Of a stretch of DNA of 47,092 bases, positions 128-35,428 are shown in pieces. The translations under genes were made by a program, and so were the position numbers. This DNA is from a virus. Where the stretch lies: the IMG/VR virus record IMGVR_UViG_3300049718_000044, positions 1 to 47,092 of that record. One strand, written 5' to 3'. Position 1 is the stretch's first letter. Every line of letters starts with the position of its first letter. The notes under the pieces were generated by a model, which was not told the DNA's origin, did no database searches, and worked only from the letters and a program-made list of their open reading frames with translations.

Positions 128-906
128 CCTGCTACGTCCAGAAGATCGGACGGTGTCTTGCCGATGCCAACATAATTTGTAGTTGGTGAAACGGTGATCC
201 CGTTGGTGTTGCCGTAGCCAAGTGGCGTTGCGATCCGGATGCTATTGCCAGAATTGGCGCCGAGGTACGTCACATTATCACTCGATACTCCAAGTATATT
301 TTGTTGTGCTCCAGAAGTATTCGCCATGCGAAAAAATTGATTGTTCGCAATTGAAAACGCATAGCCGCCTATTGTACCTGTAAGGTCAATCCCCGTATAT
401 GCAAGCCCTGTTAGCTTCAAAAGTGGTGGGTAGCCGCCTGGTGCAGTACCGCCAGCAAGCGTTGTTGTTCCCGATGCGGCGTTGTCAGTTATCCGAGAAT
501 CCCCCCACCCGCTCGCAGTCTTCACTGGGACGTAATACGTGGTTCCGCTCAGGGTGCCGCTTCCCGCAACATAGGTCCCGCTCAAGTCCGGCACGACCGA
601 CGTGCTGATCTTCGTGTTGCTGTCCAGGCACGGGATGCCGTTGGCCGTGTTGCTGCAGTAGTCGGAATAGGTGGTGGTGACTGAGGCACACGCATTCCAC
701 GCAGTAGCCGACGATCCAGGCAGCGTGACCGTCACCCCTGGTGTCTGCACGCACTTGACCTGGCCGGTCGTCTTATCGAGTGAAGGCGTGCCTGCGATAC
801 CAGGCGAGTTGCTCCCAGGCGTTACCGTCACACCAAAGGCAAACGGCGAAGCAATTAGGCCAGCGACGGCCAGTGCAATCAGTGCGCGCGCTACAACTCG
901 TTTCAT
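1..906 (-). CDS. Tail fibre-like protein with signal peptide, N-terminal part (cut by contig ends)
   Basis: The ATG at 904-906 overlaps the TAA of the upstream hub gene (TAATG). The frame then stays open to base 1 and continues at 46965 down to the TGA at 45898. The intact gene is 1,974 nt, 657 residues. The N-terminus has a clear Sec-type signal: MKRVVAR, then a hydrophobic core ALIALAVAGLIA, then SPFAFG with a probable cleavage after residue 23-25. What follows is Gly/Ser/Thr/Asn-rich and beta-prone, as in tail fibres and adhesins. Its position directly after the tail hub gene fits a distal fibre. A secretion signal is unusual for a phage virion fibre, which assembles in the cytoplasm, so it could instead be an exported or host-surface protein. 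The fibre role is inferred; the gene and its junction are directly visible. Confidence 0.85.
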   Translation of the reverse strand, partial: MKRVVARALIALAVAGLIASPFAFGVTVTPGSNSPGIAGTPSLDKTTGQVKCVQTPGVTVTLPGSSATAWNACASVTTTYSDYCSNTANGIPCLDSNTKISTSVVPDLSGTYVAGSGTLSGTTYYVPVKTASGWGDSRITDNAASGTTTLAGGTAPGGYPPLLKLTGLAYTGIDLTGTIGGYAFSIANNQFFRMANTSGAQQNILGVSSDNVTYLGANSGNSIRIATPLGYGNTNGITVSPTTNYVGIGKTPSDLLDVAGAVGALSLKLNGATSGAVTHGVAATTASYSMLDPATAPAAGQA

Positions 907-3900
907 TAGGCGGACCCTCCTGCAAACTGCCAAAACTTCAAACTGCCTGAATCTGTCATGAGTGACAGTTGTATGATGTCGTCAGGTTCGGGGAACATGT
1001 CTTCGTACACGCCGCCGATCTTCTTTGTCTTGATCTGCGCGCCGCTTGTCGGAGTGCCTGCTGCTGTGACAGTGCAAGCATCTACAAAAGAAAATGTCAA
1101 CTGTGTGCCGCCTATTGACGTGCTGGTGTCAACGCCCACCAGCGGCCCGGCCCCATGCACGCGCAGATGCTTGTGGCTGCCGAACCCTGAGATCACACCG
1201 TCCACAATCGTGACGTCAAACCAGCCGTCGTCGGGCGGCGCTTGCAGGGCCAGGGTTGAACCAAGCGGCATGCGCAGAAGGATGGCGTTGACCCCATCGT
1301 AGGTAATCGTCAGGGTGACGGGCGTGGTGGAATCCGTGTGCAGCGTGGGAATCAGGACAAACGTATTGTCCGATGCAAGGGATACGTGCGGCGACTGATA
1401 CACGAGCGGTCCGAGAGCTTGCGGGCCGGGCACAAGCGGCGCGGATTGAATCTCAAACAACACGCCGGGGTTGCTGCCAGAGCAGTACACCTTGAACCCG
1501 ATGGTGGTGGTGGCCCCAACGTCCCCGCCATCGACTGTCACCCACGTGGGCGTGATGGTCCATGGTGCTGCCGGGATGCTTGTTACTCCCGGCGTGTTGG
1601 GCAGCATGGGAAACGCTTGCGGGAAATCGCTGCCCGTGCTTGTGGCTGTTCTTGTGGCTGACATGACGAGGCCTGAGTCGCCAGACACGCGCACGCCCGC
1701 GAACTGGTCAGCACGCAGCAGCTTTGGAGTGCTAACAAGCGGTGAAGTGGTGCCAAGGTCTACCCAGGCCATGGGAGCCACCCCCAGCACGATGTTGTCC
1801 GTTTGCATCTGCAAGAAGTGCGCGCCGTAGGTCGTGCCGTTCAATACCTGGACCACCATATCCTTGGCGAAGGCATCGGACGTGCTGAAGTCGGGGTCGC
1901 GGTGCATGCGCGCGTGTGTGGCGACGAAAGAGTACCCACCGCCTACGGCCTCTTCCCAGTGGCCTCCGATGTCATCGACCACATAGGGGCCGTCGTACTC
2001 CTTGCCGGTGAGCGACCCCGGCAAGGACAACGCAAGGAAAGATCGGCCCACTGCCCAGGCATCCGCGCCAAACGCGCCGGTTCCCGTTCCGCCCTGAATG
2101 CCGGTGAAGGGGTTCATGCCATCGAACATGTCGGCGGTGAGCGGCCCTGCGATTGTACGCTCCATCACGCCAGGGGAGATCTGCGCGAATATGCTGAACA
2201 CGACACCGGTACCTGCCCAGGCGGACGCGCTGAACGCCGCCACCACCGCGCCTCGGTCGTTCGCATCGAGCACCTGTGCCGTCCTGTACTCCTCAAACGC
2301 CAGCGGCGTGGTGGGCGCGACGGGGCTTGGCAACGGAAGGTTTGGCACGGTGAGAGCCTGCGACGGGTAGAAGAAGACATCCTCGCAACATTCGACCTTG
2401 ATCGAGTTGTCGATGCCGTCGCCCAGGTGGATACCCGTCACGCGCATGACCATGGAGTTAATGCCGAGGTCAGGCCAGTTGAGCACGAAGGGGGATCCGA
2501 TGTTGAAGCCCGCCGCCTGCCTTGCCGCAATGACCGTGCAGGAAAGCAGCGGCGTGGACAACATGCGCAGGTCGCGCAGCGCGAGCTTGGCGGCGTTGGC
2601 CTGCGACGTGATGCCGGGGTAGTCGATCTGGGCAGAGACGATCCCGCCCTGCGCTTGAATCAAGCCATCCTCGTAAATGGTGACGCTGCCCTGGTCGCCC
2701 GAGCGCGTGGAGGCCGAGTAGGTAACGGTCACGCAGTTGACCAGCTCGCCCGGCTGCTTGCGGGATGCGCTCTCAATACTCACCACGTTGGACTCGTCGA
2801 GCACAGTCAAATCGCCGTATGTGTAGTCGTTGCGAATGAGCTTGAGTACGAACTGCCCCGAGGTGCGGTCTACGTACAGCACGCCCGTGATGTGGCGAAG
2901 GATGTCAGCCAAGAAGTCTTCGATGGTCGTTTGCGAGGACCACACGTGCGACATCCCCAAGCGTTCGTTGTAGAGCGTGTCGGCGGCTGCGGTAAAAGAG
3001 GCGTCGTTGATGTTGGCCTCTGCGTACCCCATGCCCCAGTACGGATCGGTCAGGGCCTCGCGGATGATGTGCGCCGGGTTCATGTCCACCACGCCAGCGG
3101 GCGCAGCGGCCTCCTGCCCCACCTGGATGCCAGCGTAGATGAACTGCCCGGTTCCGACATGGTTCCCGCTCGCGTCCGAGCCATTGATCACTCGATACGC
3201 AATGACGTTGATGCCGCCAGTGTTGATCAATTCCTTCGGAATGACTGCGGTCGAGTTGTACTGCGCCATCTCGCCCTGCCCCGTTGGCGTTAGCGTGATG
3301 GGCGTGCCGTTGAACCACAGTTCTCCCGTATCGTCGTGCCACATGCGCACGTTCAGGGGGAAGACTGGCAGCGCGCCGATGTTCCAGCGCATCCATAGCT
3401 TGGTTCCCACGACCGAGCGGCCATTCGGCCACGTTCCCAGAACCGTCGAGCCATCCGTGGGAAGCTGCGTTCCGCAAGGTGGGATGTAGTAATTAGGCCA
3501 ATTGAAGTATTTGCCCACGTCCACCTTGACAATGGCGTTGCCGATGCCACCAGGCCCCTGTGCCCAGTCAGAATCGTCATAGCTCACGGCGCTGAAGTCG
3601 GTCCAGTCGTTCGTAACCTTGTACTTCCACACGTCGGACAAGCTGCGCTCGCCGTTGGAAATCTCGGCCTTAGCGTCGTACCACTGCACGCTTGCCCCGC
3701 CTAGGCGCGTGTGGATGCGCTTGACGATGAACGTCCAGGGCTTGAGGTACGGACTCGTGCCGATGCGCCCACCCTGGAACACCACCGACGCCACGCCCTT
3801 GTACTTAGGCCCTAGGGTGTAGCCGAGCTTTTCAGCCATGTAGTCGTCCTCGCCCGCGTCTGTCCCCGCCACACTGACGGCGCCCTTGTTCAATTCCCAC

Positions 3901-4319
3901 CCACCGAGAACGGAGTCAGGCCCGACGTAGATGTTATTGCCAGTGCCGCCGCCGCCTAGCTGCTGGGGCACACCCGCCGATCCGTCATCTGCTACAAGCG
4001 TACCCCCGTCGTTGATGTAAGGCTGGCCGGCAACGAAAATCTGCATCAGCTCATCGATCAGCCCATGGCAGATCCCCATCTGAAGACCTGCATAGTAGTA
4101 TTGATCGTTGTTCACCGGAATGATCTGAAGGTCTCCGTACCAGCACGTATTGATCTGTGTTAACTCGCGCGTGCCGAACACCGCGGGAATTGCGATCCCC
4201 TCTGTGGCCGTTGGCCCCTGCACCTGGCCCGGCGCCTGGGTGGGTGGCTTCATCTTGCTCTGCATGTAGAGCGAGTAGATGAACGCCGCGATAGTGACAC
4301 CAGCAACGAACCAAGCCAT
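906..4319 (-). CDS. Tail tip/hub host-specificity protein (J-like)
   Basis: 1,137 residues, the largest protein in the genome. It begins with a hydrophobic segment (about residues 3-19, WFVAGVTIAAFIYSLYM), then a conserved-looking N-terminal part with GIAIPAVFGT. The middle, about residues 415-660, has the tail-hub features of the lambda J / GTA host-specificity group: HIIREALTDPYWGMG, a segment on decoding a local query (ILRHITGVLYVD) and a beta-rich domain ending near ECCEDVFFYP. The C-terminal 450 residues are beta-rich and variable, the usual receptor-binding end. It lies last in the tail series, after the DUF2163-type gene, which is the canonical hub slot. It starts in a TAATG overlap with the preceding gene and ends TAA-TGA, a tandem stop that also overlaps the fibre start. 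Confidence 0.85.
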   Translation of the reverse strand: MAWFVAGVTIAAFIYSLYMQSKMKPPTQAPGQVQGPTATEGIAIPAVFGTRELTQINTCWYGDLQIIPVNNDQYYYAGLQMGICHGLIDELMQIFVAGQPYINDGGTLVADDGSAGVPQQLGGGGTGNNIYVGPDSVLGGWELNKGAVSVAGTDAGEDDYMAEKLGYTLGPKYKGVASVVFQGGRIGTSPYLKPWTFIVKRIHTRLGGASVQWYDAKAEISNGERSLSDVWKYKVTNDWTDFSAVSYDDSDWAQGPGGIGNAIVKVDVGKYFNWPNYYIPPCGTQLPTDGSTVLGTWPNGRSVVGTKLWMRWNIGALPVFPLNVRMWHDDTGELWFNGTPITLTPTGQGEMAQYNSTAVIPKELINTGGINVIAYRVINGSDASGNHVGTGQFIYAGIQVGQEAAAPAGVVDMNPAHIIREALTDPYWGMGYAEANINDASFTAAADTLYNERLGMSHVWSSQTTIEDFLADILRHITGVLYVDRTSGQFVLKLIRNDYTYGDLTVLDESNVVSIESASRKQPGELVNCVTVTYSASTRSGDQGSVTIYEDGLIQAQGGIVSAQIDYPGITSQANAAKLALRDLRMLSTPLLSCTVIAARQAAGFNIGSPFVLNWPDLGINSMVMRVTGIHLGDGIDNSIKVECCEDVFFYPSQALTVPNLPLPSPVAPTTPLAFEEYRTAQVLDANDRGAVVAAFSASAWAGTGVVFSIFAQISPGVMERTIAGPLTADMFDGMNPFTGIQGGTGTGAFGADAWAVGRSFLALSLPGSLTGKEYDGPYVVDDIGGHWEEAVGGGYSFVATHARMHRDPDFSTSDAFAKDMVVQVLNGTTYGAHFLQMQTDNIVLGVAPMAWVDLGTTSPLVSTPKLLRADQFAGVRVSGDSGLVMSATRTATSTGSDFPQAFPMLPNTPGVTSIPAAPWTITPTWVTVDGGDVGATTTIGFKVYCSGSNPGVLFEIQSAPLVPGPQALGPLVYQSPHVSLASDNTFVLIPTLHTDSTTPVTLTITYDGVNAILLRMPLGSTLALQAPPDDGWFDVTIVDGVISGFGSHKHLRVHGAGPLVGVDTSTSIGGTQLTFSFVDACTVTAAGTPTSGAQIKTKKIGGVYEDMFPEPDDIIQLSLMTDSGSLKFWQFAGGSA

Positions 4320-5128: not shown

Positions 5129-6291
5129 GGGTAGATCGGAACCTCTTTAGTTGCGGCTACGATGGTCGCCTGACGGCCGGGGAGGTGTTGGATCTCGATG
5201 CGGTCAGAGTCCAGGCGCGAGAGGGTTAACTTGCTCACCTTAAGCGCAGCCATGGGCCAGGTGGATCCGGACCACGAACCCGACCAGTAAAGCAACTCGT
5301 TTGCCCCTGACGTCGCCACGCTTACAATTCTGAGCGGAACAAAGACTCCCGTGGCTTCGTTCATCACGGCCAGATCCATGGGCAGTGGGTACTCGGTGGC
5401 GAAGCCCATAGCCGCGACTTGCAGGCTGTTGTCACCCGGCGCGATGTCCTTTGTCAGCACCACGTCGCCGTTCCAACTCGAAGTCCAGAACCTCTTCCAC
5501 CTCCCGCGCAGGGTGTGCAGCCACACGCGCAGTTCCCACAGGTCCGCCGCATTCTGCGCTGTCCACGCCAGCACCGCCGACTGGTTAGGGGTCGCATAGA
5601 TCGGGTACTTGTAGATCGGGCCGGTCCTTGAATCCAGCTCCTCAACCTCGCGGACGTTGTGCTCGGAAATGCTGTTGATGACCTCGATGGGGTCTGTGAC
5701 GAGAGGGTACCCAAGGTAGCTTGGATACAGGTCAGAGCCCATGCTGAGAAGGTCTTCGGTATCCACGCACAGGAACGCGGCGCTGGCTTGCGAGTACGTG
5801 TGCGGGCCACGGTCGCCCGTGAAGTCCTGCGAGAAGGTGCCCACACGCAGGGGCGCGACCCATGGGAGCGTATAGCCTGCGACGGTCGCGCTGATCGATA
5901 TGGTGCCCAAGCCCCCATTGACGACCGATGTCACCGAGACAACCTCGTAGCTGGCGTTGCTACCCCACACGAGGGCGAAGCCGCCTTGGCGGTACGCGGG
6001 CGCGTGGGTCGTAGTCACGGGCAGCGTGACGGTAGCTGCGCCAATGGTTGGAATCTGCGTAGCATTGGGCCAGTCGGGCACGTACACCGGATCGCCGCCC
6101 ACCACGCGGGCAAGCTCGCGCGCAGCCGCGTAGTCGATGTCTTCGAGCTGGTACTTGAAAGCGTAGGACGTGCGCGGCATCTGGCACAAGCACTGCGGGT
6201 ATTCCGCACGCTTGCACTTGATGATGCTGGTCAGCCATTCGAGGCTTTCCACCACGTTCATTTGAGGCATGAATGGCCACGCTACGGTCAT
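5125..6291 (-). CDS. Minor/distal tail protein
   Basis: 388 residues, no signal peptide or membrane segment, beta-rich with many aromatic residues. It has an internal region with two cysteines in CKRAEYPQCLCQ (about residues 26-37). I do not recognise a named domain with certainty. Its place between the tape measure and the DUF2163 protein corresponds to the distal tail protein slot (DIT/GTA gp12-like) that caps the tube and starts the baseplate. Start ATG overlaps the tape-measure stop (ATGA). Strongly supported as a gene by continuous frame and tight coupling; the exact role comes from position only. Confidence 0.75.
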   Translation of the reverse strand: MTVAWPFMPQMNVVESLEWLTSIIKCKRAEYPQCLCQMPRTSYAFKYQLEDIDYAAARELARVVGGDPVYVPDWPNATQIPTIGAATVTLPVTTTHAPAYRQGGFALVWGSNASYEVVSVTSVVNGGLGTISISATVAGYTLPWVAPLRVGTFSQDFTGDRGPHTYSQASAAFLCVDTEDLLSMGSDLYPSYLGYPLVTDPIEVINSISEHNVREVEELDSRTGPIYKYPIYATPNQSAVLAWTAQNAADLWELRVWLHTLRGRWKRFWTSSWNGDVVLTKDIAPGDNSLQVAAMGFATEYPLPMDLAVMNEATGVFVPLRIVSVATSGANELLYWSGSWSGSTWPMAALKVSKLTLSRLDSDRIEIQHLPGRQATIVAATKEVPIYP

Positions 6292-8624
6292 CGGTTGCCC
6301 AACGCTTGGATCGTGCGGTGGTTTTTCTGAAGGTGGATGTTGACCGTCCGAACCCCCTGCGTGCTGGACAGGTAGCGGTTGACGGCCTCGTGCGGATCGA
6401 AGCTGGCGTTGACCGTGATGTTGGGCGATCCGCCACCCATCATCTTAGCCGTGTCCGCGCGGCTGGTGACGTCGGCTGGGCCTCGCACAAGCTCTGGGCC
6501 ACGCTCGCCCACGAGGCCAATCGAGCCTGCGGGGATGCGCCCGCCCAGGTCGTGGGCTCCCGAGTAGTTTGCCGCTGAGATCATGGCGATGATCTTCGCA
6601 CCCTCGGCGGCGGCAGCGAGCCCGGCCGGGATGCCCGCAGGCCAACCCAGCTCCATGGCCTTCCCCATGCCGACTGCCATGGATACGCCCGCGCTCGCGA
6701 CGGCGAATGCTTTCTGTGCGGCGAACAGGGTCTTGTAAACGTCACTCTGTTTGGCCCCTGAACGCTTGGACGCTTCGGCCAGGTTTGCAAAAATCATCTC
6801 GGCGTTCTGCGTGGACTGCTGCATCAGCGCAGCGTCGCTTTCACGGATCTGAATGTTGGCCTGCTTGTGGATCTCAACCTTCAGCTTCTCGTGTTCCGCT
6901 TCCGAAACAAGGTCTTCGTCTCGCGCCTCTTGGGCGGCTTCCAACTTGCGGCGTTCGTCGTCGCGAATGCGCTCAACATCAGTCATGGCGGGGCTCATGA
7001 GATCGGCGTGCTTGTTGGTCTTGTCGCGTGCGGCGCCGTGCTTCTGCTGCGCAACCTCGTCCATGTGCGCAGCCCACTGGTCTTCGTTCTTCTTGCGCAG
7101 GACGCCGCCCTCGTCGTTATAGTCGTTCAGGACCTCTTTGCGCTTTTCGTAGCTTTCTCGGATCGCATCCTCTTCCCCTTTGAGGGTCTTCTTGATTCCT
7201 TCCAGTTCTTTGTCGTTGGCTTCCAGCTTGGCGTCAAGATCGTCCAAGAACGCCTTGCGGTTGTCGGCCGACAGCTTGCGCATGCCCTTGTCGAATGCTT
7301 CGCCAGTGTCGCCCTTGGGCTTCTTATCTTTCTTGTCACCCCCTGCTATTTTTGCATACGCTGCGTCCTCTTCTGCCAAAGCGGCTCGCGCATCGAAGTC
7401 GTAGGCGGCCTGAAACTCTTCGTCCGTTGACGCCGCCAAGATCGCTTTTCGATTAGCCAGGTGTGTGCGCAAAGCAACATCTTCCTTGCTCTGTGCCTTC
7501 TCGTGGATGTCGCGGATTTTATCGGCGATTGTCTCAGCTTGGCTCTCCTCTTCCTCACCCCACTTGCCATCCATGAAGTGGTCCAGAACATCCCGCTTCT
7601 CCTTGCTCATACCGGGCGGCTTCTTGGAGATGGTGAACAGCAGCGCTTCGATGGACTTCCCCAGCCCATCAATCACCCAGGCAGCATCGCCGATGCTGGT
7701 CTTGATGATGTCTCCGATCACGCTGTTGCCGATGTTGCGGTAAAGATGCTCCCAAGCCTCGGATAGCTCCTTGAGAGATCCCCCCATGGTATCGAGCTGG
7801 CGGGCAGCCGCACCAGCAAACTGGTTGTTTCCCAGCTTGGTGAAGTAGGCTTGCACCGATTCGGCGGTCTTGTTGATCGTCTCGGTCTGTCCGCGAAACG
7901 TGACCTTCAGCTTGTTGCCGTCTTCTTCTGCACTAATGCCGTACTGTCGCAGGCTGCGATACATCCCCATGGAAGCCATGACCACGGCCTGTGAAATGCT
8001 GCCCACGTCCGTGCCGAACGCGCTAGCCATGTTGGAGAACGCCTTGAGGGATTCATCGGTGGGGTCGAGGCCAACTTGCTTCAAGTGGATGAAGGCGTTA
8101 GCGAGCTGGTCTTCCGTGAAGATCGTCTTTTTCGAGACTGCTTCAAGCTCCTCGAACTTCTCCTTAGCGTCTTCCGTGCTCCCCGTGATGCCTTCCAGGC
8201 GCGCGATGATCGACTGGTACTCAACCGTCGCGTGGATCGTCTCTTCAATGACGTGCTTCGCACCCTCGAATGACGCCCAGCCTAGGGCCAGCTTTGCCCC
8301 GAAGGCTACAGCCTCATGCCCACCCTCTTGCATGCTCTCGCCCAGGCGGACGGTAGCCTTTTCAAACATGGACAACCCGGCCCCGCCCATACCGCCAGCA
8401 CTAACGGCGGCCTTCTCCATGGCCTGCAACCCAGTTGCAGCCTCTCGTGCTGCGTGGCCGTGCTCGGTCAGCCTGGCCGATGAAACGGCGACCTTGCTTT
8501 GCAGTGTTGCGGCCGTACCTTCGAGTTGCTTGCTGATCGCCGCAGTCTCCTGCATGCGCTTGTTCGCAAGCTCGAAGCCATCAGAGATCACCTTCAGTTC
8601 AAGGGGCTCTGTGGCTTCACTCAT
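6288..8624 (-). CDS. Tail tape measure protein
   Basis: 778 residues. It is predominantly alpha-helical and Ala/Lys/Glu/Gln-rich, with long heptad-like stretches (about residues 430-640) and a hydrophobic segment around residues 665-700 (VGMGKAMELGWPAGIPAG). The C-terminal end has the GGRIPAGSIGLVGERGPEL motif common at the end of lambda-like tape measures. Tape measure length sets tail length. With the usual 0.15 nm per residue this suggests a tail of roughly 115 nm, a moderate siphovirus tail. It directly follows the frameshifted chaperone pair, the classic order. Its ATG overlaps the chaperone fusion stop (ATGAGTGA), preceded by a GGAAGG ribosome site. No lysozyme or peptidase motif was noticed inside it. 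Confidence 0.93.
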   Translation of the reverse strand: MSEATEPLELKVISDGFELANKRMQETAAISKQLEGTAATLQSKVAVSSARLTEHGHAAREAATGLQAMEKAAVSAGGMGGAGLSMFEKATVRLGESMQEGGHEAVAFGAKLALGWASFEGAKHVIEETIHATVEYQSIIARLEGITGSTEDAKEKFEELEAVSKKTIFTEDQLANAFIHLKQVGLDPTDESLKAFSNMASAFGTDVGSISQAVVMASMGMYRSLRQYGISAEEDGNKLKVTFRGQTETINKTAESVQAYFTKLGNNQFAGAAARQLDTMGGSLKELSEAWEHLYRNIGNSVIGDIIKTSIGDAAWVIDGLGKSIEALLFTISKKPPGMSKEKRDVLDHFMDGKWGEEEESQAETIADKIRDIHEKAQSKEDVALRTHLANRKAILAASTDEEFQAAYDFDARAALAEEDAAYAKIAGGDKKDKKPKGDTGEAFDKGMRKLSADNRKAFLDDLDAKLEANDKELEGIKKTLKGEEDAIRESYEKRKEVLNDYNDEGGVLRKKNEDQWAAHMDEVAQQKHGAARDKTNKHADLMSPAMTDVERIRDDERRKLEAAQEARDEDLVSEAEHEKLKVEIHKQANIQIRESDAALMQQSTQNAEMIFANLAEASKRSGAKQSDVYKTLFAAQKAFAVASAGVSMAVGMGKAMELGWPAGIPAGLAAAAEGAKIIAMISAANYSGAHDLGGRIPAGSIGLVGERGPELVRGPADVTSRADTAKMMGGGSPNITVNASFDPHEAVNRYLSSTQGVRTVNIHLQKNHRTIQALGNR

Positions 8625-9320
8625 TTTGCACCTTCCAAAAAATGCGGTCGATGGACTTGATCAGGTCTGCTTCCCAGCCTGTGATTGTCGTTCCGGTTAC
8701 TTCCGACCAGTTGCGGATCTCAGTATATGTCAGGCGCTCGCCATTGAACAGCTCATGCCACCAGCCCCATACATACGCAAGCTCCTCGGGCAGCTCGGGA
8801 AGGGTCAGGCCGTCCGGTTTGTCCGTCCGGCCCTGTGCCTTCCAGGTCTTCCAGACTTGTTCTAGGTTTGCCCGCTCTGACTGTCCGCCACCGGCTGGGC
8901 GTTTGTCGAGTCGGAAACTTGTTTCTGCGTGTCGGGCAAGCTGCTCGACGCGACCCCGAAAAAACGGCCACGGTTGTAGACGAGGTCGTCAATCTGGCGC
9001 GCAACCTGCGGGGCCTCGCGCAAAAAGTCAAGCACTGCTGCCTCAGTGCAGGGATCGTCAAAGCTCCACCCTGACACGAGAGTCGCAGTCAGACGCAACT
9101 CTTCATCCACCGTGGCAGCCTTGCGCTCTTCCGGGGTTGGCATCTGTGCAATGACCATCAGGTTTCGATGCGTGGCCGTCTTGGCGTCGCGGAACGCATC
9201 GGAGTCCACACCCAAGACGCGCAGCCAGTCGCCCGCGTCTTTCCCCTCGGGTGTCTTGATGTTGAGAATCACGCCCGCGTTCGCGCGCGAGCGTGTGAAA
9301 TACTTCGACTTATCAGCCAT
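8617..9320 (-). CDS. Tail assembly chaperone fusion (gpGT-like), by -1 frameshift
   Basis: Predicted 234-residue product. It comprises residues 1-121 of the upstream frame, then 113 residues read in the -1 frame from 8958 to the TGA at 8617-8619. The extension starts RGRVEQLARHAE, contains LPELPEELAYVWGWWHELF and ends at the tape-measure start. I translated it by hand: it has no ATG, GTG or TTG codon in its own frame upstream of the very last residues, so it can only be made by frameshifting. G/GT frameshifting at this locus is conserved across long-tailed phages. The short and long products coat the tape measure during tail assembly and are absent from virions. The extension ends 8 bases into the tape-measure gene. 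Confidence 0.9.
8862..9320 (-). CDS. Tail assembly chaperone, short form (gpG-like)
   Basis: 152 residues when the slippery site is read without slipping; ends TAG at 8862-8864. It begins MADKSKYFTRSRANAG with a GGAGGG ribosome site 8 bases upstream, and contains the DDPCTEAAVLDFLREAP stretch typical of a compact helical chaperone. It lies between the tail tube and tape-measure genes. It should be the major product, with the fusion the minor one. Residues 122-152 after the slip site are Ser/Gln-rich and low in complexity, as expected for a tail that exists only because it overlaps the second frame. Confidence 0.9.
   Translation of the reverse strand: MADKSKYFTRSRANAGVILNIKTPEGKDAGDWLRVLGVDSDAFRDAKTATHRNLMVIAQMPTPEERKAATVDEELRLTATLVSGWSFDDPCTEAAVLDFLREAPQVARQIDDLVYNRGRFFGVASSSLPDTQKQVSDSTNAQPVADSQSGQT
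8958..8964 (-). promoter_or_regulatory. Slippery heptamer T TTT TTC for -1 frameshift
   Basis: On the minus strand the bases are T TTT TTC, in phase with codons 120 (TTT) and 121 (TTC) of the chaperone gene. This is a canonical X XXY YYZ site on which both P- and A-site tRNAs can re-pair after slipping back one base. The following CGGGGTCGCG is GC-rich and could pair downstream, but I could not compute a stimulatory structure. Confidence 0.9.
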
Positions 9321-9344: not shown

Positions 9345-10274
9345 TTATGCGTGCGGGGTGCGCGTGATGACGATGTTGCTGTTGGTCGTGGTGGCGTCCA
9401 GCAATGCCTGAAACGGCATGGCCAGCGTGACGGGTCCGATGCCCTTCACGTCGGGCGGCGCGCCCGTGTAAATCACGCGGGGGATGTTGACCTGCAAGCT
9501 GTTGTTCAGCGAGTCCATCAGCGTGAATGACACCGACGACTCGGTACCGTTGATGAACTTATTGAGCATCGTCGAGTCCTCGAAGTACGCCGTCAGCGTC
9601 CCCGTGATGTCGAAAAACCCAGGCGTCGGGCGGCGCGACAGCTTGGAGCCCACCACATAACGACCCTGCAAACCAGCCGCGATGCTAAGTTGAAGCTCGG
9701 TCACAACCGCGATGGATGACCCACCTTCGTTGATCGTACCGGTGAAGGCATCGAACACGGGCGTGGTGGTGGGGTTCGTGTGTGTGGCCCCAGTCATAGC
9801 CGCCGCCCCGATGGTCATGTTTTGGCCGAGCAGCGAGAACTGGCCCTTGACAATGGCGTTGTTGGCCAAGGTCAGCGTCATCTTGTCGATCTCACATCCG
9901 GTGTACCAGTGGTAGGGGTCGTCGGCGATGTCCGCGAAGTTCCGCTCGAACGTGAACGAAGACCGGGCCACGCCCGCCTTAAGCACGTTCGTTCCGGCGC
10001 CTCCCCAGGTGCTCTTGAGCAGGTTCGCGAGCAGGTCATCGTACGTCCCGTAGGACATTTCGATCCCGATGTCGCCTGCGATCTTGTAGGCACCCTGGCG
10101 GAACGCGAAGAGCTGAAAGTCCGGCCGGATTTCTTCCGACTTGAGCCCGTCTTTCTGCAACGCCAGCGACACGCTTGTGTTCCGCAAAAGCTGAAACGCG
10201 GGCGTGCTTGTCGGCGTAGTGCCGTAAGTAACCTCGGGTATGTAGCCTATTGAGTGCCGTGCGCCGTCAGCCAT
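9345..10274 (-). CDS. Major tail tube protein
   Basis: 309 residues, beta-rich, no cysteine clusters. The N-terminus (SIGYIPEVTYGTTP, then a region SEEIRPDFQLFAFRQGAYKIAGDI) matches the Phage_tube_2-type tail tube family: leading IPE/TYGT, then IR-D-Q...G...GDI and a following DDLL helix. The ATG has a GGAGAC ribosome site. It lies between the tail terminator and the chaperone genes, the standard position of the tube subunit. This should be one of the most abundant virion proteins. Gap to the chaperone start is 24 bases. Confidence 0.88.
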   Translation of the reverse strand: MADGARHSIGYIPEVTYGTTPTSTPAFQLLRNTSVSLALQKDGLKSEEIRPDFQLFAFRQGAYKIAGDIGIEMSYGTYDDLLANLLKSTWGGAGTNVLKAGVARSSFTFERNFADIADDPYHWYTGCEIDKMTLTLANNAIVKGQFSLLGQNMTIGAAAMTGATHTNPTTTPVFDAFTGTINEGGSSIAVVTELQLSIAAGLQGRYVVGSKLSRRPTPGFFDITGTLTAYFEDSTMLNKFINGTESSVSFTLMDSLNNSLQVNIPRVIYTGAPPDVKGIGPVTLAMPFQALLDATTTNSNIVITRTPHA

Positions 10275-10283: not shown

Positions 10284-10685
10284 TTAGCGTGGAATGAGAG
10301 CGTACCAGTTGACGGTAACGCTCACGTGGAACCAGTTATCTTCGAGCCGCCCCGGCGAGCGCCCGCACTTGCTTATCACAATCGTCTGCCCGTTGGCGAT
10401 GAACGAGTGCCCGACCTTGTACGCCGCGCGGAACGTCTCGGCGTCGGCAATGGCCGCGGCGTCACCCTGGCCAATGGGATAGAAGAAATCGACCTGTGCG
10501 ATCCCGGTCTGCTTGTCTTCTCCCAGGTCGCCGAGGGTTTCCCCTTCGGGCACGTTGGGCAGGTACGTGAAGCGGCACCACTTCGCATCGGTCGGCTTGC
10601 TGAAAGCCGCATTCTCACGCTCGACGGGGATCGCGCCCAGCGTGGACAGCACCGACGTGGTAAGCGCCAGTTGCGCGTTGGCCAT
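10284..10685 (-). CDS. Tail terminator protein (DUF4128-like)
   Basis: 133 residues from ATG at 10683-10685, which lies 2 bases after the upstream stop (TGAGCATG). I chose this start over an upstream in-frame start because the extra 38 codons would lie entirely inside the preceding gene. It has an alpha/beta pattern with FTYLPNVPEGETLGD, an exposed acidic loop and a closing strand VSVTVNWYALIPR, as in DUF4128 tail terminators that cap the tail tube and dock it to the head. Position directly before the tube gene supports the call. Confidence 0.78.
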   Translation of the reverse strand: MANAQLALTTSVLSTLGAIPVERENAAFSKPTDAKWCRFTYLPNVPEGETLGDLGEDKQTGIAQVDFFYPIGQGDAAAIADAETFRAAYKVGHSFIANGQTIVISKCGRSPGRLEDNWFHVSVTVNWYALIPR

Positions 10686-10687
10686 GC

Positions 10688-11080
10688 TCACAGAGCACCG
10701 CCCTTGCACGCGCGCTTGATGATCTGATTGACACGCGACACGTTCCTGCGAAGCATGCCAGCGGGGGCCTTCTTGCTCCAACCCATCTCGCACGGCCACG
10801 CATGCGGGCAGTTGTTGCGGAAGTAGAAAACCTCGTCGCCCTTCATCTCGGACACGGCCGCAACGCTTTCGGCGATGGCCATGTTCATGGGCCGGATGTT
10901 GAGTTCGCCCTCGCGCGGGCTGCCCAAGCTCGATTGCCAGTTGCCTTGCAGGAGGCCGGTAAGCACGGGGGTGGCCGCGATGGTGCTGCCGCAGAGGTCG
11001 AGGATTGCGGCCTTGCGGATGCGGATCACGGCATCCAGTTGCGCCTTGGTGCGCGCTGCTACGCTGGTCGAAAAGCTCAC
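10688..11080 (-). CDS. Head-tail joining / tail completion protein (HK97 gp10-like)
   Basis: 130 residues, GTG start overlapping the upstream stop by 4 bases (GTGA). The N-terminal helix is followed by TPVLTGLLQGNWQSSLG, the TP..TG.L...W signature of gp10-like neck proteins, then a region rich in Cys and aromatic residues (FRNNCPHAWPCEMGWSKKAP). The C-terminus is basic (RRNVSRVNQIIKRACK). In HK97-like phages such proteins sit in the connector stack between head and tail. The family call is moderate; the gene itself is secure by coupling on both sides. Confidence 0.75.
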   Translation of the reverse strand: MSFSTSVAARTKAQLDAVIRIRKAAILDLCGSTIAATPVLTGLLQGNWQSSLGSPREGELNIRPMNMAIAESVAAVSEMKGDEVFYFRNNCPHAWPCEMGWSKKAPAGMLRRNVSRVNQIIKRACKGGAL

Positions 11081-13048: not shown

Positions 13049-13552
13049 TTAGGTCGCCGAGTAGATGGTTGCGCCCGTGTTGATGGCGATCTTGCCGATT
13101 TGTCCGCTGACCACGTCGCCCACCCAGAAGGCGTTGGGGATCGTCAGACGGCCCGCGGTGTCGGCCTTGCCCACGCGGGCCGAGCCGAGCGTGCCGCCAC
13201 CGCCAACCAGGGCGATCACGCCGTCGCCATCGACGACAGTCTCCGAGGCCTTAGCGTAGATCTCCCCCTCGTTGAGCAAGGGAACATCATCGTACTGGTT
13301 GAACGCAACCGCGCCCGACAACAGCGGGTGCAGGGGGCGCATGACTGAGATGCCCACGATGACATCCGTGGTTGCCGCAAGCAGCTTGCAGGTGCCGGTC
13401 GTGGTGCCCTTTGCGACCGCACGCCCAAAGGGGATAGCGGACGCGCCGCTATTCACGCGCGAACGGATGGTGCTAGGCACGCCCGTCGCAATTTGTCCTT
13501 CATAGCCGAGTCCAGCCAGAAGGCCACCGGGGGAGCTGAGATCTACTGCCAT
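13049..13552 (-). CDS. Capsid cement/decoration protein
   Basis: 167 residues, Gly/Ala/Val-rich, beta-barrel-like. It lies directly upstream of the major capsid gene in transcription order, where P22/lambda-type phages encode a cement or decoration subunit. The DVIVGISVMRPLHPL then VPLLNEGEIYAKASETV pattern resembles Gp24-type structural cement proteins. Weak GAAGAAA ribosome site before ATG at 13550-13552. High expression expected; role inferred from family resemblance plus position. Confidence 0.75.
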   Translation of the reverse strand: MAVDLSSPGGLLAGLGYEGQIATGVPSTIRSRVNSGASAIPFGRAVAKGTTTGTCKLLAATTDVIVGISVMRPLHPLLSGAVAFNQYDDVPLLNEGEIYAKASETVVDGDGVIALVGGGGTLGSARVGKADTAGRLTIPNAFWVGDVVSGQIGKIAINTGATIYSAT

Positions 13553-13597: not shown

Positions 13598-14218
13598 TTA
13601 CTGACGCTTTTCCTGCCAGCGGTTGTTCTGCTTGCGGGTCGCAGCTTCAACCGAAACTTCTTCCACGTCCGAGGCATCGTCGGACTTCGCGGAGATCTTC
13701 TTCTGGCCGACCACGGTGGGGTTGGCCAGGTTGCGCGCCTGCTGCTCGCGGCGTGCGGTGTTTTCATCGTTCGCGCTGGCGGCGATGACCGTGCGGAGAG
13801 CAACCTGCACCGTCGCATCGTCGGCATTGTCGAGGGCAACCCCGACCAGGACGGCGTCGGCCACGCGCTTGGCGTGCTCGTCGCGGCCCGTGATGTCGCC
13901 CAGCATGGCGCGACGGACGGCACCGGCAGAGCCCTCGGGCTTCACCTTGGGGCACAGTCGCGCGCAGTCGGACAGAACCGTGGCGTGGTCCTGCACCATG
14001 ACCGCAAGCTGCTCGGGCGTGACGATCTTCGCCTCAAGCTCTTTGACCTTGGCCACGTGCTCGGTGGCCAGCTTTGCCACCGCCTCCCCGTGCGCGGACT
14101 GCGCAGTGGTGAGAGCGTCTTGCGACGTCGCCAAGTCTTTGACCAACGTCTCAACGAGGCTTGCTTCCGTCTCGTCGAGTGAGTAGGCCACCCCTTTGAA
14201 TTGAACAGTGCGCTTCAT
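13598..14218 (-). CDS. Putative internal-start scaffold protein nested in the DUF2213 gene
   Basis: An in-frame ATG at 14216-14218 begins MKRTVQFKGVAYSLDETE and is preceded, at 6 bases, by AAGGAA, a strong ribosome site and stronger than that of the full-length gene. The product would be 206 residues, covering the coiled-coil half alone. Lambda makes its scaffold Nu3 in the same way from within the protease gene C. The site is visible; use of the site is inference. Confidence 0.6.
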   Translation of the reverse strand: MKRTVQFKGVAYSLDETEASLVETLVKDLATSQDALTTAQSAHGEAVAKLATEHVAKVKELEAKIVTPEQLAVMVQDHATVLSDCARLCPKVKPEGSAGAVRRAMLGDITGRDEHAKRVADAVLVGVALDNADDATVQVALRTVIAASANDENTARREQQARNLANPTVVGQKKISAKSDDASDVEEVSVEAATRKQNNRWQEKRQ

Positions 14219-14836
14219 TTTCGCTTCCTTCGGTTGGGTGTCTTCATCGGCGACACGGCATGATGGGCCGCCTCGTCCGCTCGGAACAATCGCGATGTGG
14301 TTCGCGCGAATCTTGCGCTGGACGGCGTCGTATGCCTCGCCCGTGTCAGGGTCGATCCCCGGCGTGCGATCGATGGCGTACTTGTACCCGGCCGACAACT
14401 GCTGGACACCCTTGTTGATGGCGTCCACGGCCTTAGCGTCGCGCACGTGAAGCGTCGCTTTCACCAGCCCCGCCTTGCGGTCGAATGAGCAATCGGAAGC
14501 GTGACCCTTGGCGAGCTGCGACCAACAGTCAGCAGTCACGCCCGCGGGGTACGCAATGGGGTCAGGGTGCCCAAGCGTGACGGACGCCTGCTCGAAACTC
14601 TTGATGGCATCGGCAGCCCCTACCTCGTCGGCAGGGCGGAACAGCTTGACCGTATCGTCGGGCTTCTTGAGTGGGAACGCGGACTGACCATCTGATGTGA
14701 AGATTTCGCGCACACGGTACGTCTGCACACCCACGCACGCAATCGCCGCAGGGGCCGACAGGAAGTTGTTCTCGTTGATCACCCGCTGGGACTGCTCGGG
14801 CAGCTCGAATCGGTCATAAGAAAAACAGGTTTCCAT
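13598..14836 (-). CDS. DUF2213-like prohead protease / scaffold protein
   Basis: 412 residues from ATG at 14834-14836, which overlaps the upstream TAA (TAATG). The N-terminal 200 residues look like the DUF2213 domain: YRVREIFTSDGQ, then SVTLGHPDPI, and AGYKYAIDRTPGIDPDTG with RANHIAIVPSGRGGPSC. The H..P and conserved Ser near AIVPSGRGG could be protease residues. The C-terminal half is a charged coiled coil (TEHVAKVKELEAKIVTPEQLA) ending in a basic Gln-rich tail, which suits a scaffold. It replaces separate protease and scaffold genes. See the nested start at 14218. Confidence 0.85.
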   Translation of the reverse strand: METCFSYDRFELPEQSQRVINENNFLSAPAAIACVGVQTYRVREIFTSDGQSAFPLKKPDDTVKLFRPADEVGAADAIKSFEQASVTLGHPDPIAYPAGVTADCWSQLAKGHASDCSFDRKAGLVKATLHVRDAKAVDAINKGVQQLSAGYKYAIDRTPGIDPDTGEAYDAVQRKIRANHIAIVPSGRGGPSCRVADEDTQPKEAKMKRTVQFKGVAYSLDETEASLVETLVKDLATSQDALTTAQSAHGEAVAKLATEHVAKVKELEAKIVTPEQLAVMVQDHATVLSDCARLCPKVKPEGSAGAVRRAMLGDITGRDEHAKRVADAVLVGVALDNADDATVQVALRTVIAASANDENTARREQQARNLANPTVVGQKKISAKSDDASDVEEVSVEAATRKQNNRWQEKRQ

Positions 14837-15756
14837 TAGTTGCCCCCGTAGCCCATGGAGTTGACGAGGTCTTCCAAATCGATGTGCGGAATGGCGCCGC
14901 ATCTACAGTTGATGTCTTCTCCGGGGTGACAAGGCTCGCCGTCGATGGTGCCCTCAAGCGGGCCTTCTTCTTCCCACGAGAAGACGCCGGGGCCATAGCC
15001 CACGTCCAGCTTTTCCATGGCCAGGTGTTCCGGCCGCGTGTTCATGTGCGTGCAGATCCAACCGTACAGCTTGATCCCTAGGTCGGTCTGCCGCACCTGA
15101 TTGAAAGCCCCGGACAGCTTGCCCGTTTGGTCGCGCGCAATGAGCGCCGCGCGCGAGTCGGTGACATCGCCCACCTTCTCGATGGCCTCGGTCAAGGTTT
15201 CGTAGTTGGTGCCCGCCTCCCAGTTCTTCGCCACGGCGTTGGCCACGTCTTGAAAATACTGGCTGGGGATGGACTCAATCAAATCGACGTTCTCGATCAG
15301 CTTCTCGCCCATCAACTCGCGGATACGCGGGGTGTCCGTGAGAAACGGCTCGATGTTGATGTCCATGGATGCGCGCACCGAGTTGGCCAAGCGCTCGTCA
15401 ACGGTCTTGATGTTCTTGCTGACAACCTTGGCGCCTAGGGCCTGCGCGCGAGGTGTGACCTTGGCAAACGAGCGCTGCTTCTCGGCGATGACATCTGCCG
15501 CCGCTGGCGCCAGTTTCGCATCGTGGGCGAACTTGCCGGGGAAGTGCCCGCGCAGGCCGGGAATCAAGTGCTGCCGTGCCCAGGCTCGAAGGCCGCGCAC
15601 GATCTCGTGCAACTCGGCCCGGTAGTACAGCTCGTTTTCCTTCGCTGGCATCACGGGGCGCAGCTTGCGCGGGCTCCGCACGCGGAACCGCTCGCTTCGA
15701 TGCCCAGGAGCGACGAAGCCAGGCCGGACAATCTGTGCGATATTTACGTGCAGCAT
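14836..15756 (-). CDS. Minor head morphogenesis protein (Mu gpF-like)
   Basis: 306 residues. The C-terminal third has the Mu F-like signature: ALIARDQTGKLSGAFNQVRQ, then W-C-T-x-M-N-T-R-P-E-H and PGEDINCRC (about residues 285-293), with the conserved Cys pair near the end. Such proteins are made in few copies, sit inside the procapsid near the portal and help DNA packaging or ejection. N-terminus is basic (RSERFRVRSPRKLRP). Context: downstream of portal and accessory virion genes, upstream of the protease/scaffold. A 57-base gap separates it from the repeat protein. Confidence 0.85.
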   Translation of the reverse strand: MLHVNIAQIVRPGFVAPGHRSERFRVRSPRKLRPVMPAKENELYYRAELHEIVRGLRAWARQHLIPGLRGHFPGKFAHDAKLAPAAADVIAEKQRSFAKVTPRAQALGAKVVSKNIKTVDERLANSVRASMDINIEPFLTDTPRIRELMGEKLIENVDLIESIPSQYFQDVANAVAKNWEAGTNYETLTEAIEKVGDVTDSRAALIARDQTGKLSGAFNQVRQTDLGIKLYGWICTHMNTRPEHLAMEKLDVGYGPGVFSWEEEGPLEGTIDGEPCHPGEDINCRCGAIPHIDLEDLVNSMGYGGN

Positions 15757-15813: not shown

Positions 15814-18768
15814 TCACATGCCCACAGGATGCACCCAAGTCACGCTCCGACCAGGAAACAAGGACCATCCACTGCGAGGCTGCCACACCAGAATTGTGCT
15901 AGGCACGAGTGCCCAATGGCCGGGATACACGATAGGCGCACCGCTGTCTGCCACAACCGAGCAAGCAGCCAACCCGCACGCCGCCGAAACAGAAAGTGTG
16001 TGTTCTTGTCCTGCGCTGGTGTCCGAGGTCGCCCCGGCCGCGAATGCGCTGACTATCAAGCCACCGTGCCCAGCAACAGCCTCACACGTCGCGCCCGCGC
16101 ACGCTGCCGTGATAGTTGCAGGCGTAACCTGTGTTGACGTTGCGCTCGCGGTTGCGCCTGCACACGTCGCGGCGACGGTCGCGGCGATTGATTGGCCTGC
16201 CGTTACTGTAGCCGTGGCCGCCCCCGCTGTTGCATCCACAGCGGCAGACATTACCTGCGTGGCGACGACCGAACACGTGGCGCCCGCCGCGTTGGCGTTG
16301 ATGCCTGCACCTGACAATCCAGGCGATGCGTAAGCCTCGCATGTTGCTCCCGCACACGTAGCATTGATCACGGCAGGCGTGACTTGCGTTGCCGAGATGC
16401 TTGCCGTTGCGCCCGCGCAGGACGCCGCGACAGTTGCGCCGGTTGATTGTCTTGCGACAGCCGAGCACGTTGCAGCGCCGGCCGAAGCGTTGACGGTCGT
16501 GGCAGTGATCTGAGTTGCCGACGCGGCGCAAGTCGCCCCCGCCGCAAACGCTGTAACGACAGCACCAACGAGACCTGGTGAGGCTACCGCCGCGCAGGTT
16601 GCGCCTGCTGCACTCGCGTTGATGGTAGCCGCTATGACCTGTGATGCGGTTGCGCTCGCGGTAGCGGCGCCGGCCACGGCCACGACTTCGATGGTGCACT
16701 GTTGCCCGGCCACGACCGCTGCCGTGGATGCTCCCGCTGACGCCAGCACTGCCGCCGAATGCGTTTGTCCAGCGGTCGCCGATGCTGTAGCACCGGCGAC
16801 GGTTGCTGCGACTGCTACCGAAGTGACCTGTGTGGCGGATGCTGCCGCCGTCGCGGCGTTGGCGTTGGCGTTGACGGTAGCCCCGTTCACCTCCGTTGAC
16901 GCGACCACCGAACAGGAGGCCCCGGCTGCCGACGCGGCGATTGCTATCGGCGTGATCTGCGTAGCGCCGGCTGTAGCGGTGGCTGCGGCGGCAGACGCCA
17001 CCACGACAGACGCTGCGGCTTGTGAGGCTGCCATCGTGCAGGTTGCGCCGGCTGCGAGCGCAGAAGCGCTTGATGGGGTAAGCTGCGTGGCAACAACGCC
17101 AGCGGTGGCGGCGCCGGCTGTTGTTGATACCACGGTGGGCATCTGTTGTGTGGCCACAATCGCGGCGGTAGAACCGGCCGCCGAAGCTGAAACGGACGCC
17201 GGTATGCTCTGGCCTGCTGTAACGGCTGAAGTAGCGCCAGCAGCAGACGCATTGATCGACGTATCAGTTGCACCGCTGTTAAACGTCGGAGCTTCTGGTC
17301 CGGCAGCCCCGGTGAGGATGCCGGGATTCATGTTTCGGCTGTGACCGCTGTCGTCCGTGTAGCTCGCGGCTATCGGCCCCACGATCCACCTCTGCCGATA
17401 GTGTGCCCAGCATCCCGTGTATGGGGTCGCATCCGCCGCAAGCATCGCCTGAATAACAGCGTTCGATGGCACGCTTGCACCTGCAACAATCGTCAGGTTG
17501 TAGGTGTTGGACGCGTCGGTCGCTGAGTAGTCGTCGGAACAATCGTAAAATCCGCCGACGTGGTCAAATGTGAGATCTGCAAACCCGACAACTGAGTAGT
17601 CAATCGTCGTGCTGTACGGGCCTTGAACGGTCCCGCTTGACCCCAACTGGTACCACATGTAGATAGTCGCCGATGTCGCGCCAACCACCACCATGTGGCC
17701 GCAACCGATCCAACCTTTTGCGGTGACGTAGTCGGTGGTAAAGCTTGCGAAATCGTGCTGGGCCATCAGGTTCTCGCTGCCGTTCAGGTCGAGCCCAATG
17801 GTCCCTATGACGGTCGAACCGTCTACCTGGTCCCAACGAATCGTGAAATTGCACTGGTACTGATTGTATGAGGCATTCTCCAGATAGATGCCAACGGTGT
17901 CACCCCTTGCGCGTGACCACGGAGCCACGCCGGGATCTGGCATCCTCCACCATTTCGTCGCGGTGGCGCCCGTGGTGATGGTACTTCCCGCGGGGGCGTC
18001 GTTTTCTATATTGATGCGTGCGTATGTTGACTCCAGGCTGGTCGAGTACACCTCTGGTGGGGCTGGCCCTGGTACGAAAAGGAACGTCCACGCGACCCAA
18101 TTGTCTGCCCCGTTTGCCGTCTGTAAGAGCGTCGCTGTTGCGACTGCGCCCGCCGCCACGTTGTCTCGATAGACTACGCCCAAGCTGTAGCCATTGGCTG
18201 TCGTATTGACGTTGACTGCAGTGCCGTTGATCGCGTAGCTGTCACCCGATGCCTGCTTGGTGTTGGGGGTGTTGTTGTCGCACGAAATATAGACGTGGAC
18301 ACGAGTGTCACCAGCAACGGCATTGGCCGCCGTTGCTGGCGCGGTCATGGTCATAGTCGCACCTGAACCGACCACCGTGACCGCGCTATCCCGAATCGGC
18401 GCCGTCGGATCCCACTGCCCGGAAGGCGAGCGCCACACCTCGCCCACGGCGCCCCAGACAGTTCCCGTATTCACGGTGAACACGGGGTTGGTCACATCTG
18501 TGTAGCCGGCACCCCACTGCTTCTTGAATATCGCGAAGTGGTGCGTGCTATCGGGCGACTGGTCCGCGCTGGCTGTGAGGAGTCCCCATCCCTGCCCTGT
18601 TGGCGGTGTGAATGTGCACGTGTTCGCATTCGCGAAATTGGCGAACACAAACACTAACTGCCAGTCGTACTTCTGAGGGGTATACCCCGCAAGAGTAGTA
18701 AAGTTCGGCGTCCGGGTTGCCCCGGTGGTGCCGGACACTACTGTCGTGCACCCGAGCGGACTGGCCAT
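15814..18768 (-). CDS. Large virion protein with tandem 21-residue repeats (head fibre candidate)
   Basis: 984 residues. Residues 1-240 look like a jelly-roll or lectin-like domain (TTLAGYTPQKYDWQLVFVF; WGAVGEVWRSPSGQWDP). Residues 260-480 look like a second, concanavalin/laminin-G-like beta domain (LENASYNQYQCNFTIRWDQV; GFYDCSDDYSATDASNTYN). Residues about 503-940 are about 21 tandem copies of a 21-residue unit, roughly TxVxASAAGATCxxxATQxTP. The last 40 residues are Trp/Pro-rich (ALVPSTILVWQPRSGWSLFPG). No membrane anchor or signal was seen. It sits among head genes, between the portal-side gene and the Mu F-like gene, not with the tail. I infer a head-attached fibre or adhesin; family unknown to me. 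Confidence 0.85.
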   Translation of the reverse strand: MASPLGCTTVVSGTTGATRTPNFTTLAGYTPQKYDWQLVFVFANFANANTCTFTPPTGQGWGLLTASADQSPDSTHHFAIFKKQWGAGYTDVTNPVFTVNTGTVWGAVGEVWRSPSGQWDPTAPIRDSAVTVVGSGATMTMTAPATAANAVAGDTRVHVYISCDNNTPNTKQASGDSYAINGTAVNVNTTANGYSLGVVYRDNVAAGAVATATLLQTANGADNWVAWTFLFVPGPAPPEVYSTSLESTYARINIENDAPAGSTITTGATATKWWRMPDPGVAPWSRARGDTVGIYLENASYNQYQCNFTIRWDQVDGSTVIGTIGLDLNGSENLMAQHDFASFTTDYVTAKGWIGCGHMVVVGATSATIYMWYQLGSSGTVQGPYSTTIDYSVVGFADLTFDHVGGFYDCSDDYSATDASNTYNLTIVAGASVPSNAVIQAMLAADATPYTGCWAHYRQRWIVGPIAASYTDDSGHSRNMNPGILTGAAGPEAPTFNSGATDTSINASAAGATSAVTAGQSIPASVSASAAGSTAAIVATQQMPTVVSTTAGAATAGVVATQLTPSSASALAAGATCTMAASQAAASVVVASAAAATATAGATQITPIAIAASAAGASCSVVASTEVNGATVNANANAATAAASATQVTSVAVAATVAGATASATAGQTHSAAVLASAGASTAAVVAGQQCTIEVVAVAGAATASATASQVIAATINASAAGATCAAVASPGLVGAVVTAFAAGATCAASATQITATTVNASAGAATCSAVARQSTGATVAASCAGATASISATQVTPAVINATCAGATCEAYASPGLSGAGINANAAGATCSVVATQVMSAAVDATAGAATATVTAGQSIAATVAATCAGATASATSTQVTPATITAACAGATCEAVAGHGGLIVSAFAAGATSDTSAGQEHTLSVSAACGLAACSVVADSGAPIVYPGHWALVPSTILVWQPRSGWSLFPGRSVTWVHPVGM
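15950..17260 (-). repeat. About 21 tandem 63-bp coding repeats (21-residue unit)
   Basis: Degenerate in-frame repeats, Ala-rich with recurrent GATC/GATA, ATQ and TP or PGLxG at unit ends. Occasional units carry PGL(V/S)G instead of QxTP. Codons differ between units, so the repeats are not recent DNA duplications; selection appears to act on the protein pattern. The regular period suggests a beta-solenoid or collagen-like rod. Confidence 0.85.
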
Positions 18769-24255: not shown

Positions 24256-24965
24256 AGCCCGAACTCACCAAGCACCAGAAGTTCCAAAGCCTTCGCATCA
24301 AGCGCAGCGAGATCAAGAATCTGCCTCTGAATCCGCGCACCATCAGTGCGAACGCGAAGAAGCGCCTCAAGAAGTTCATCGAGCGCGTGGGCCTGCTCGG
24401 TCCGGTGAACTACAACACCACCACGGGGCACGTGTACGGCGGCAACCAGCGCCTTGCCGTGCTCGATGCCCTGGAAGGTGGCCAAGACTACCTGCTCGAC
24501 GTTGCAGCAGCCAAGCTCACGCCCAAGCAGGAGGCCCGCGCCGTTACGGGGCTCAACTCCCAAGAGCTGCAAGGTGACTGGGATCTGCCTCTGCTCGCCA
24601 AGCTCCTGGGCGAAGACAAGCAGCTTGACCCCGAGGACTATGGATTCTCTCAAGTATCACTTGATGTTTTGCTGGGCGAGGAGGGCAAAGGCATCTTTGC
24701 CATGCAGAGCCCCGAAACTGAATCGTCGCTCGACGACCTCAACGAGATGAACGAGCGCGACCCCGACGAAGTTGCAGCAGAGAAGAACGCAGCCGTCGAG
24801 CGCAGGCACAAGATGAAAGAGAAAGCGCAAGTCGATCAAAACGCGAGCAGTGCTGACCGCGTGGCCCACGTCGGATTCAAGACGACCAAAGAGCTAGAAG
24901 CGTGGATGGTCAAGCACGGGGAGAGCCCGCACGCCCGCTACATCAGCGCGAAGGATGTGCCCTAA
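24252..24965 (+). CDS. ParB/sulfiredoxin-fold protein (IbrB-like)
   Basis: 237 residues, ATG overlapping the PP-loop gene stop by 4 bases. The ParB N-domain is visible: LPLNPRTISANAKKRLKKFI, VGLLGPVNYN, then VYGGNQRLAVLDAL with GGNQR at residues 63-67, the ParB box that binds CTP or a phosphate. The C-terminal half is acidic and helical (LNEMNERDPDEVAAEKNAAV) with no helix-turn-helix seen, so it is not a canonical partition ParB. Paired with the PP-loop enzyme, it may deliver it to DNA or act as nuclease/NTPase partner. A strong hairpin follows the TAA. Confidence 0.82.
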   Translation: MKPELTKHQKFQSLRIKRSEIKNLPLNPRTISANAKKRLKKFIERVGLLGPVNYNTTTGHVYGGNQRLAVLDALEGGQDYLLDVAAAKLTPKQEARAVTGLNSQELQGDWDLPLLAKLLGEDKQLDPEDYGFSQVSLDVLLGEEGKGIFAMQSPETESSLDDLNEMNERDPDEVAAEKNAAVERRHKMKEKAQVDQNASSADRVAHVGFKTTKELEAWMVKHGESPHARYISAKDVP

Positions 24966-24970
24966 AAAGT

Positions 24971-25006: not shown

Positions 25007-25098
25007 GTGGTTTCTGACTTGGAGGGCAGACACCGAAATCCAAGCTACGCGCCCGGTGGGGTGGTGTCAACTGCTTCACCGGCACAGGGCCTCTCGAT

Positions 25099-35427: not shown

Positions 35428-35428
35428 G

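Follow-up and report, generated by a model that had tools for sequence, protein, structure and literature searches.

Tail assembly chaperone frameshifts in described phages

The kind of frameshift considered here is well known and belongs to the textbooks; the locus at hand is an unannotated member of that kind. In phage lambda the ribosome slips on G GGA AAG. One account of lambda has the gene yielding gpG and, by a -1 frameshift near its end, gpGT; G attaches to the tape measure protein and T to the tail tube protein (PMC5009743). For one HK97-like chaperone cluster, frameshifting is put at 7% in another source (PMC3711429). The PRFect paper reports many phage genomes with two chaperone genes and without a joined one (PMC10885494).

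The nearest printed precedent found is Pseudomonas phage Adele, described (PMC12846349) together with tail assembly chaperone (TAC) loci of the Vandenendeviridae and Andersonviridae. In those loci, as in the present one, a polyT-containing slippery site ends the upstream part (TAC-N), the -1 extension is routinely annotated as a hypothetical gene, and the same reasoning is applied. They differ in their invariant motif, which is GTTTTT, and in belonging to other phage families. Measured against lambda gpG/gpGT, the site here is T TTT TTC, the extension belongs to Phage_TAC_18 and the first part is a weak match to Phage_TAC_4, both family assignments being those of the present locus.

Phages PaMx11, Ab18 and A1432 (Mesyanzhinovviridae) and PaMx74 (Pamexvirus) carry the same locus, with the same heptamer and gene order and an extension 58-61% identical. 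Their records differ from the reading given here, in that two separate CDS are annotated. The word ‘frameshift’ is absent from the available text of the Lydia family paper (PMC11946847) and of the A1432 paper (PMC11236537). A search light on subscription journals found, among the papers listed, no published frameshift description for Mesyanzhinovviridae or Queuovirinae; nor, with those journals mostly outside the search, was literature found that ties a tail assembly chaperone frameshift to TTTTTTC or to Seuratvirus. The best match of the window’s terminase, among the matches listed (12 of 1792 records), is that of Bdellovibrio phage phi1422 (45%), and this suggests a mosaic genome lying outside the Mesyanzhinovviridae.

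Layout of the locus and proposed mechanism

The window, that is, the whole stretch of DNA analyzed, is a virus record of 47,092 bases, and the frameshift locus lies entirely on its minus strand. Its features are as follows.

10284..10799, minus strand: tail terminator protein (PF13554, E 1.2e-17; phrog_179)
9345..10274, minus strand: tail tube (major tail) protein (PF18906 Phage_tube_2, E 5.8e-53)
9320..8862, minus strand: zero-frame tail assembly chaperone (TAC-N, gpG-like), 152 codons/152 aa, ATG to TAG
8964..8958, minus strand: slippery heptamer T TTT TTC, formed by zero-frame codons 120-121 (TTT TTC) and the preceding T, in X XXY YYZ phase
8957..8617, minus strand: -1 frame extension beyond the heptamer (TAC-C, gpT-like), 113 codons past FF, then TGA
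8864..8862, minus strand: TAG stop of the short, non-shifted product
8624..6288, minus strand: tape measure protein (phrog_1538, E 6.2e-41; PF20155 TMP_3, E 9.2e-8, under its cut-off)

A GGAGGG stands upstream of the TAC-N ATG. The chaperone gene pair is flanked by the tail tube (9345-10274) and tape measure (6288-8624) genes, as in the lambda G/GT kind; tail terminator, tail tube and tape measure are the set of neighbors expected for a tail chaperone. A preliminary description had proposed a frameshift on a slippery heptamer at codons 120-121, followed by a -1 frame open for 113 codons up to the tape measure. That reading is supported, with two corrections, one on annotation, given below, and one on the strand, which was left unstated and is the minus strand. 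The heptamer is in place and in the phase for a -1 slip; the -1 frame, open from stop to stop over 8988..8617, runs to the TGA, so that the tape measure ATG (8624..8622) overlaps the 3' end of the extension; and the extension sequence then quoted, LPELPEELAYVWGWWHELF, is present in the window’s -1 frame.

Because the gene anatomy is the same as lambda’s, the best account is -1 programmed ribosomal frameshifting of the lambda G/GT type, with a short chaperone as the main product and a 234-residue fusion as the rarer one, and we consider it very probably correct. On this account the majority of ribosomes would stop at the TAG (8862) and release the 152-residue TAC-N. In a minority, the two tRNA-Phe would re-pair with TTT TTT at the T TTT TTC heptamer, which sets the ribosome one base backward; translation would then go on in the -1 frame as far as the TGA (8617) and yield a fusion (119 + FF + 113 residues) bearing the Phage_TAC_18 domain. 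On the lambda model, the tape measure protein may be coated by the N part and tail tube subunits recruited by the C part, in which case the ratio of the products would matter. We infer that the slippage is ribosomal, and likewise the roles of the two products.

Conservation and turnover of the slippery site

One way to judge the heptamer is by what the rest of the genome would produce. A count over 28 hand-picked window genes, which together have 32,712 coding bases, gives five X XXY YYZ heptamers that are in phase and have A or T as Y; a single one of these is TTTTTTC. Phe is coded by TTC 297 times versus TTT 77 times in the window genes; from codon use, T-TTT-TTC is expected in about 3% of cases (~2.7%) given two Phe, a figure which, for the 34 related loci with the site, is description rather than test.

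The homologous loci were compared after 51 rows had been reduced, by ungapped identity below 95%, to 41 non-redundant loci. Left out were L001, whose extension is identical to the window’s, and the contig repeats L046-L059, L061, L063, L064, L067-L069 and L072; the survey of heptamers and start codons in 44 loci left out L020, with no more than 29 residues, and L021, which is the window. T TTT TTC is found at the aligned codons in 34 of the 41, window included, and is common to isolates of Pseudomonas, Stenotrophomonas, Xanthomonas, Vibrio and Acinetobacter phages. Four loci carry other canonical sites, one each: T TTT TTC one codon earlier (L042, Escherichia phage ChristophMerian), T TTT TTA (L041), A AAA AAG (L045) and G GGA AAC (L040).

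These sites bear on a different source of the fusion: RNA polymerase slipping on the T run would add a base, and part of the mRNA would encode the fusion in one frame. There is indeed a run to slip on, of six T (T6) in the window and of seven in many relatives. However, T6 is short for transcriptional slippage; the run stands in X XXY YYZ phase in 34 of 34 loci having T TTT TTC; and two distant homologs use G GGA AAC, in which the longest run is three, or A AAA AAG. Slippage of the polymerase is accordingly rated very improbable.

At the junctions of the three other loci (L036, L043 and L074) no canonical site was recognized, the junction alone being inspected in L074. In L036 (Serratia phage Serbin, ~1470-1510) the FF is kept but coded TTC TTT, and the -1 frame is open. 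An in-phase A AAG GGT occurs downstream of the match start, by 51 bases in L036 and by 69 in L012 and L024; it was excluded as a site in all three, as it lies beyond conserved residues. In L043 (Curvibacter phage P26059A, 1104-1872) the Phage_TAC_18 homolog is in the +1/-2 frame of its TAC-N, and the junction reads TTT CGA CCC AAA TGA; a +1 (or -2) shift is possible there, or else a sequence error.

It is an even question whether the recoding signal turns over within this one homologous chaperone family while the two-part architecture is retained. That is, T TTT TTC would serve in most loci; T TTT TTA, A AAA AAG and G GGA AAC would serve in distant members; none is recognized at the Serbin and L074 junctions; and in P26059A, with its C-domain in the +1/-2 frame, a slip on TTT C or CCC A could serve.

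The extension as coding sequence

The preliminary description had the extension lacking a start codon of its own, and this is borne out. From the heptamer onward the window’s -1 frame contains no ATG or TTG; its sole GTG is at +333 of 345, the fourth codon before the end; and the first start of any table-11 kind is a CTG, whose product would be 63 aa.

Homologs are plentiful, and a search against tail chaperone profiles, suggested earlier as a check, gave a clear match. The extension hits Pfam PF23812 Phage_TAC_18 with E 3.1e-16 and 59.7 bits, above the curated cut-off of 27; in the genome search the domain occupies 8632-8832 (60.5 bits), entirely past the zero-frame stop. Fourteen control genomes gave no Phage_TAC_18 match, and all 32 members of the alignment of extension homologs (A1) match the family. 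By tblastn, 143 of 50,697 phage records hold an extension homolog, each with at least 80% query coverage, the best at ~61% identity; one homologous locus was found in bacterial genomes. The lack of homologs, or a dedicated start, had been named as evidence that would count against a frameshift; neither was found. Both parts are matched by the 259-position family phrog_15027 (‘tail assembly chaperone’): TAC-N at 4-123, and the extension, with a weak E of 0.02, at 216-253. This hints that some published proteins span both parts. In a sequence-profile search of the PDB the best E was no lower than 0.17 with the extension and 0.56 with TAC-N. The AlphaFold model of the extension, built with 13 sequences, has a mean pLDDT of 49.4, and no fold search was run with it for that reason.

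The pattern of substitution speaks to the frame in use. The window was compared with a related locus, L002, whose protein is 77% identical. In the codons belonging to the extension only, the -1 frame shows 36 synonymous and 18 non-synonymous differences, versus 4/52 and 6/52 in the other frames. In the overlap the -1 frame shows 12 synonymous and 8 non-synonymous differences versus 1/19 in the zero frame. Upstream of the site the zero frame stands at 24 synonymous and 47 non-synonymous, and TAC-N itself therefore evolves fairly fast; even so, zero-frame third bases account for 63 of the 122 differences in that part. The strong coding character ascribed to the extension in the preliminary description is thus upheld, both by these ratios and by the Phage_TAC_18 match, and on this comparative evidence the extension is judged to be real coding sequence.

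A wider profile of codon positions used 238 pairs drawn from 27 sequences, each of which has T TTT TTC and aligns gap-free. Before the heptamer variability peaks at the zero-frame third base, with 0.52 of differences at -30..0; after it, the peak is at the -1 frame third base, with 0.46 at +7..+30, a signal that weakens to 0.37 at +30..+55. The zero differences inside the heptamer follow from selection of the set; the switch of frame does not. The frame under purifying selection is accordingly judged, from the alignments, to change at the heptamer. As selection in the overlap favors the -1 frame, the zero frame downstream of the site is mostly a low-constraint tail; residues 123-152 of TAC-N are of low confidence in its AlphaFold model.

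How the C-domain is drawn in public records was examined in related phages. Records with a match number 143; 24 were fetched, of which 21 are annotated. Fifteen of these give the C-domain a CDS of its own, at starts that differ between records, and six omit it; in none is it joined to the first frame. The earlier expectation that standard annotation would miss the extension therefore holds for the six omissions but not for the 15 records that list it as a separate protein.

Those 15 records would be taken at their word if the C-domain were a separate gene translated from an internal start, which is how it is drawn in many GenBank records. The window’s -1 frame, with its lone late GTG, offers little to such a gene; the annotated starts in the 15 records are scattered from +36 to +204 bases from the match start and cut off conserved residues; and conservation extends back to the heptamer, the -1 frame being already under selection directly after it. 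A separate gene, too, is rated very improbable. The frame break might also have come from a sequencing error, or from decay of a gene formerly in a single ORF, which would suit a virus record that may be a fragment. The isolates refute this reading, as the identical break occurs at the same codons in 34 of 41 non-redundant loci, isolate genomes among them; its probability is negligible.

Stimulatory elements

Programmed -1 frameshifting of the lambda type often has a stimulatory RNA element, which is not always needed. In the window no stable downstream structure was found (z +0.53 over 107 nt; -0.38 for +11..+71), and the RNAalifold consensus of 21 loci downstream reaches only -2.4 kcal/mol. 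Averaged over 33 loci, all with T TTT TTC, the structure z at +11 is -1.84; of the ten further positions taken, +131 comes close to this (-1.58). In a possible GTCGAG/CTCGAC stem, named by hand and pairing columns 15-21 with 55-61 in 21 loci, 89.8% of the cells are paired and two pairs show changes on both sides; it overlaps conserved Val-Glu and Leu-Asp codons, its covariation score is reached by 10 of 500 shuffles, and it is absent from RNAalifold’s choice. Nor is there a Shine-Dalgarno-like stretch in the 22 bases upstream of the heptamer in the window; a short match of that kind stands upstream in six of the 34 loci with T TTT TTC.

The upstream part as a chaperone

Sequence profiles place TAC-N among tail assembly chaperones. 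Its match to phrog_313 (‘Tail assembly chaperone’) has E 1.3e-11, and that to PF08748 Phage_TAC_4 has E 0.0026, under that family’s cut-off. Its AlphaFold model has a pLDDT of 79.8, and Foldseek returned no match at E < 0.001. In VIA-align the top row for the model is the HK97 tail assembly chaperone 2ob9 (Z 6.7, a value in the middling range by the tool’s own notes; rmsd 4.8, 100 aligned). The second row is YqbN, 3klu (Z 4.7, rmsd 4.7, 96 aligned), which we take to be a chaperone of the tail assembly kind as well; it is tied with an unrelated third row at Z 4.4. With Z values in a middling range, what counts in this model-based comparison is that a tail chaperone ranks first.

Other features of the window

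Elsewhere among the tail genes, residues 2-69 of a large tail protein (906-4319, minus strand) match phrog_1180, labelled tail assembly chaperone; the label has possibly been carried over from a neighbor. The region of the head genes contains a 984-codon ORF (15814-18768, minus strand) with no Pfam match at E 0.1 and no PHROG match at E 0.001.

A single tRNA was found, at 35429-35500 on the plus strand. ARAGORN gives it the anticodon TTA, which would decode UAA, making it an ochre suppressor. Rfam scores it as tRNA at 52.7 bits with an anticodon loop two bases shorter than the model, so that the anticodon assigned varies with the pairing chosen for the stem; a 23-base core of it had no exact match in viral_contigs.

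In the 28 hand-picked genes, TAA is the stop of nine of 18 minus-strand (late) genes (906-22812) versus none of ten plus-strand genes (23587-42721). Beyond four of the nine TAA stops the frame stays open for another 160-384 codons and enters the gene that follows. The four pairs are the tail terminator and tail tube, the tail tube and chaperone, 13598-14902 and 13049-13552, and 13049-13552 and the capsid gene. These run-on frames probably reflect short gene spacing.

Consequences for related phages

For the 21 annotated records, the reading proposed here would correct the annotation of phages that list the Phage_TAC_18 domain as free-standing or omit it. The proposed frameshift site is common to isolates and can be assayed. 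If the recoding signal does turn over while the two-part architecture is kept, the family would allow one to ask how a phage switches its mode of frameshifting while keeping tail assembly.
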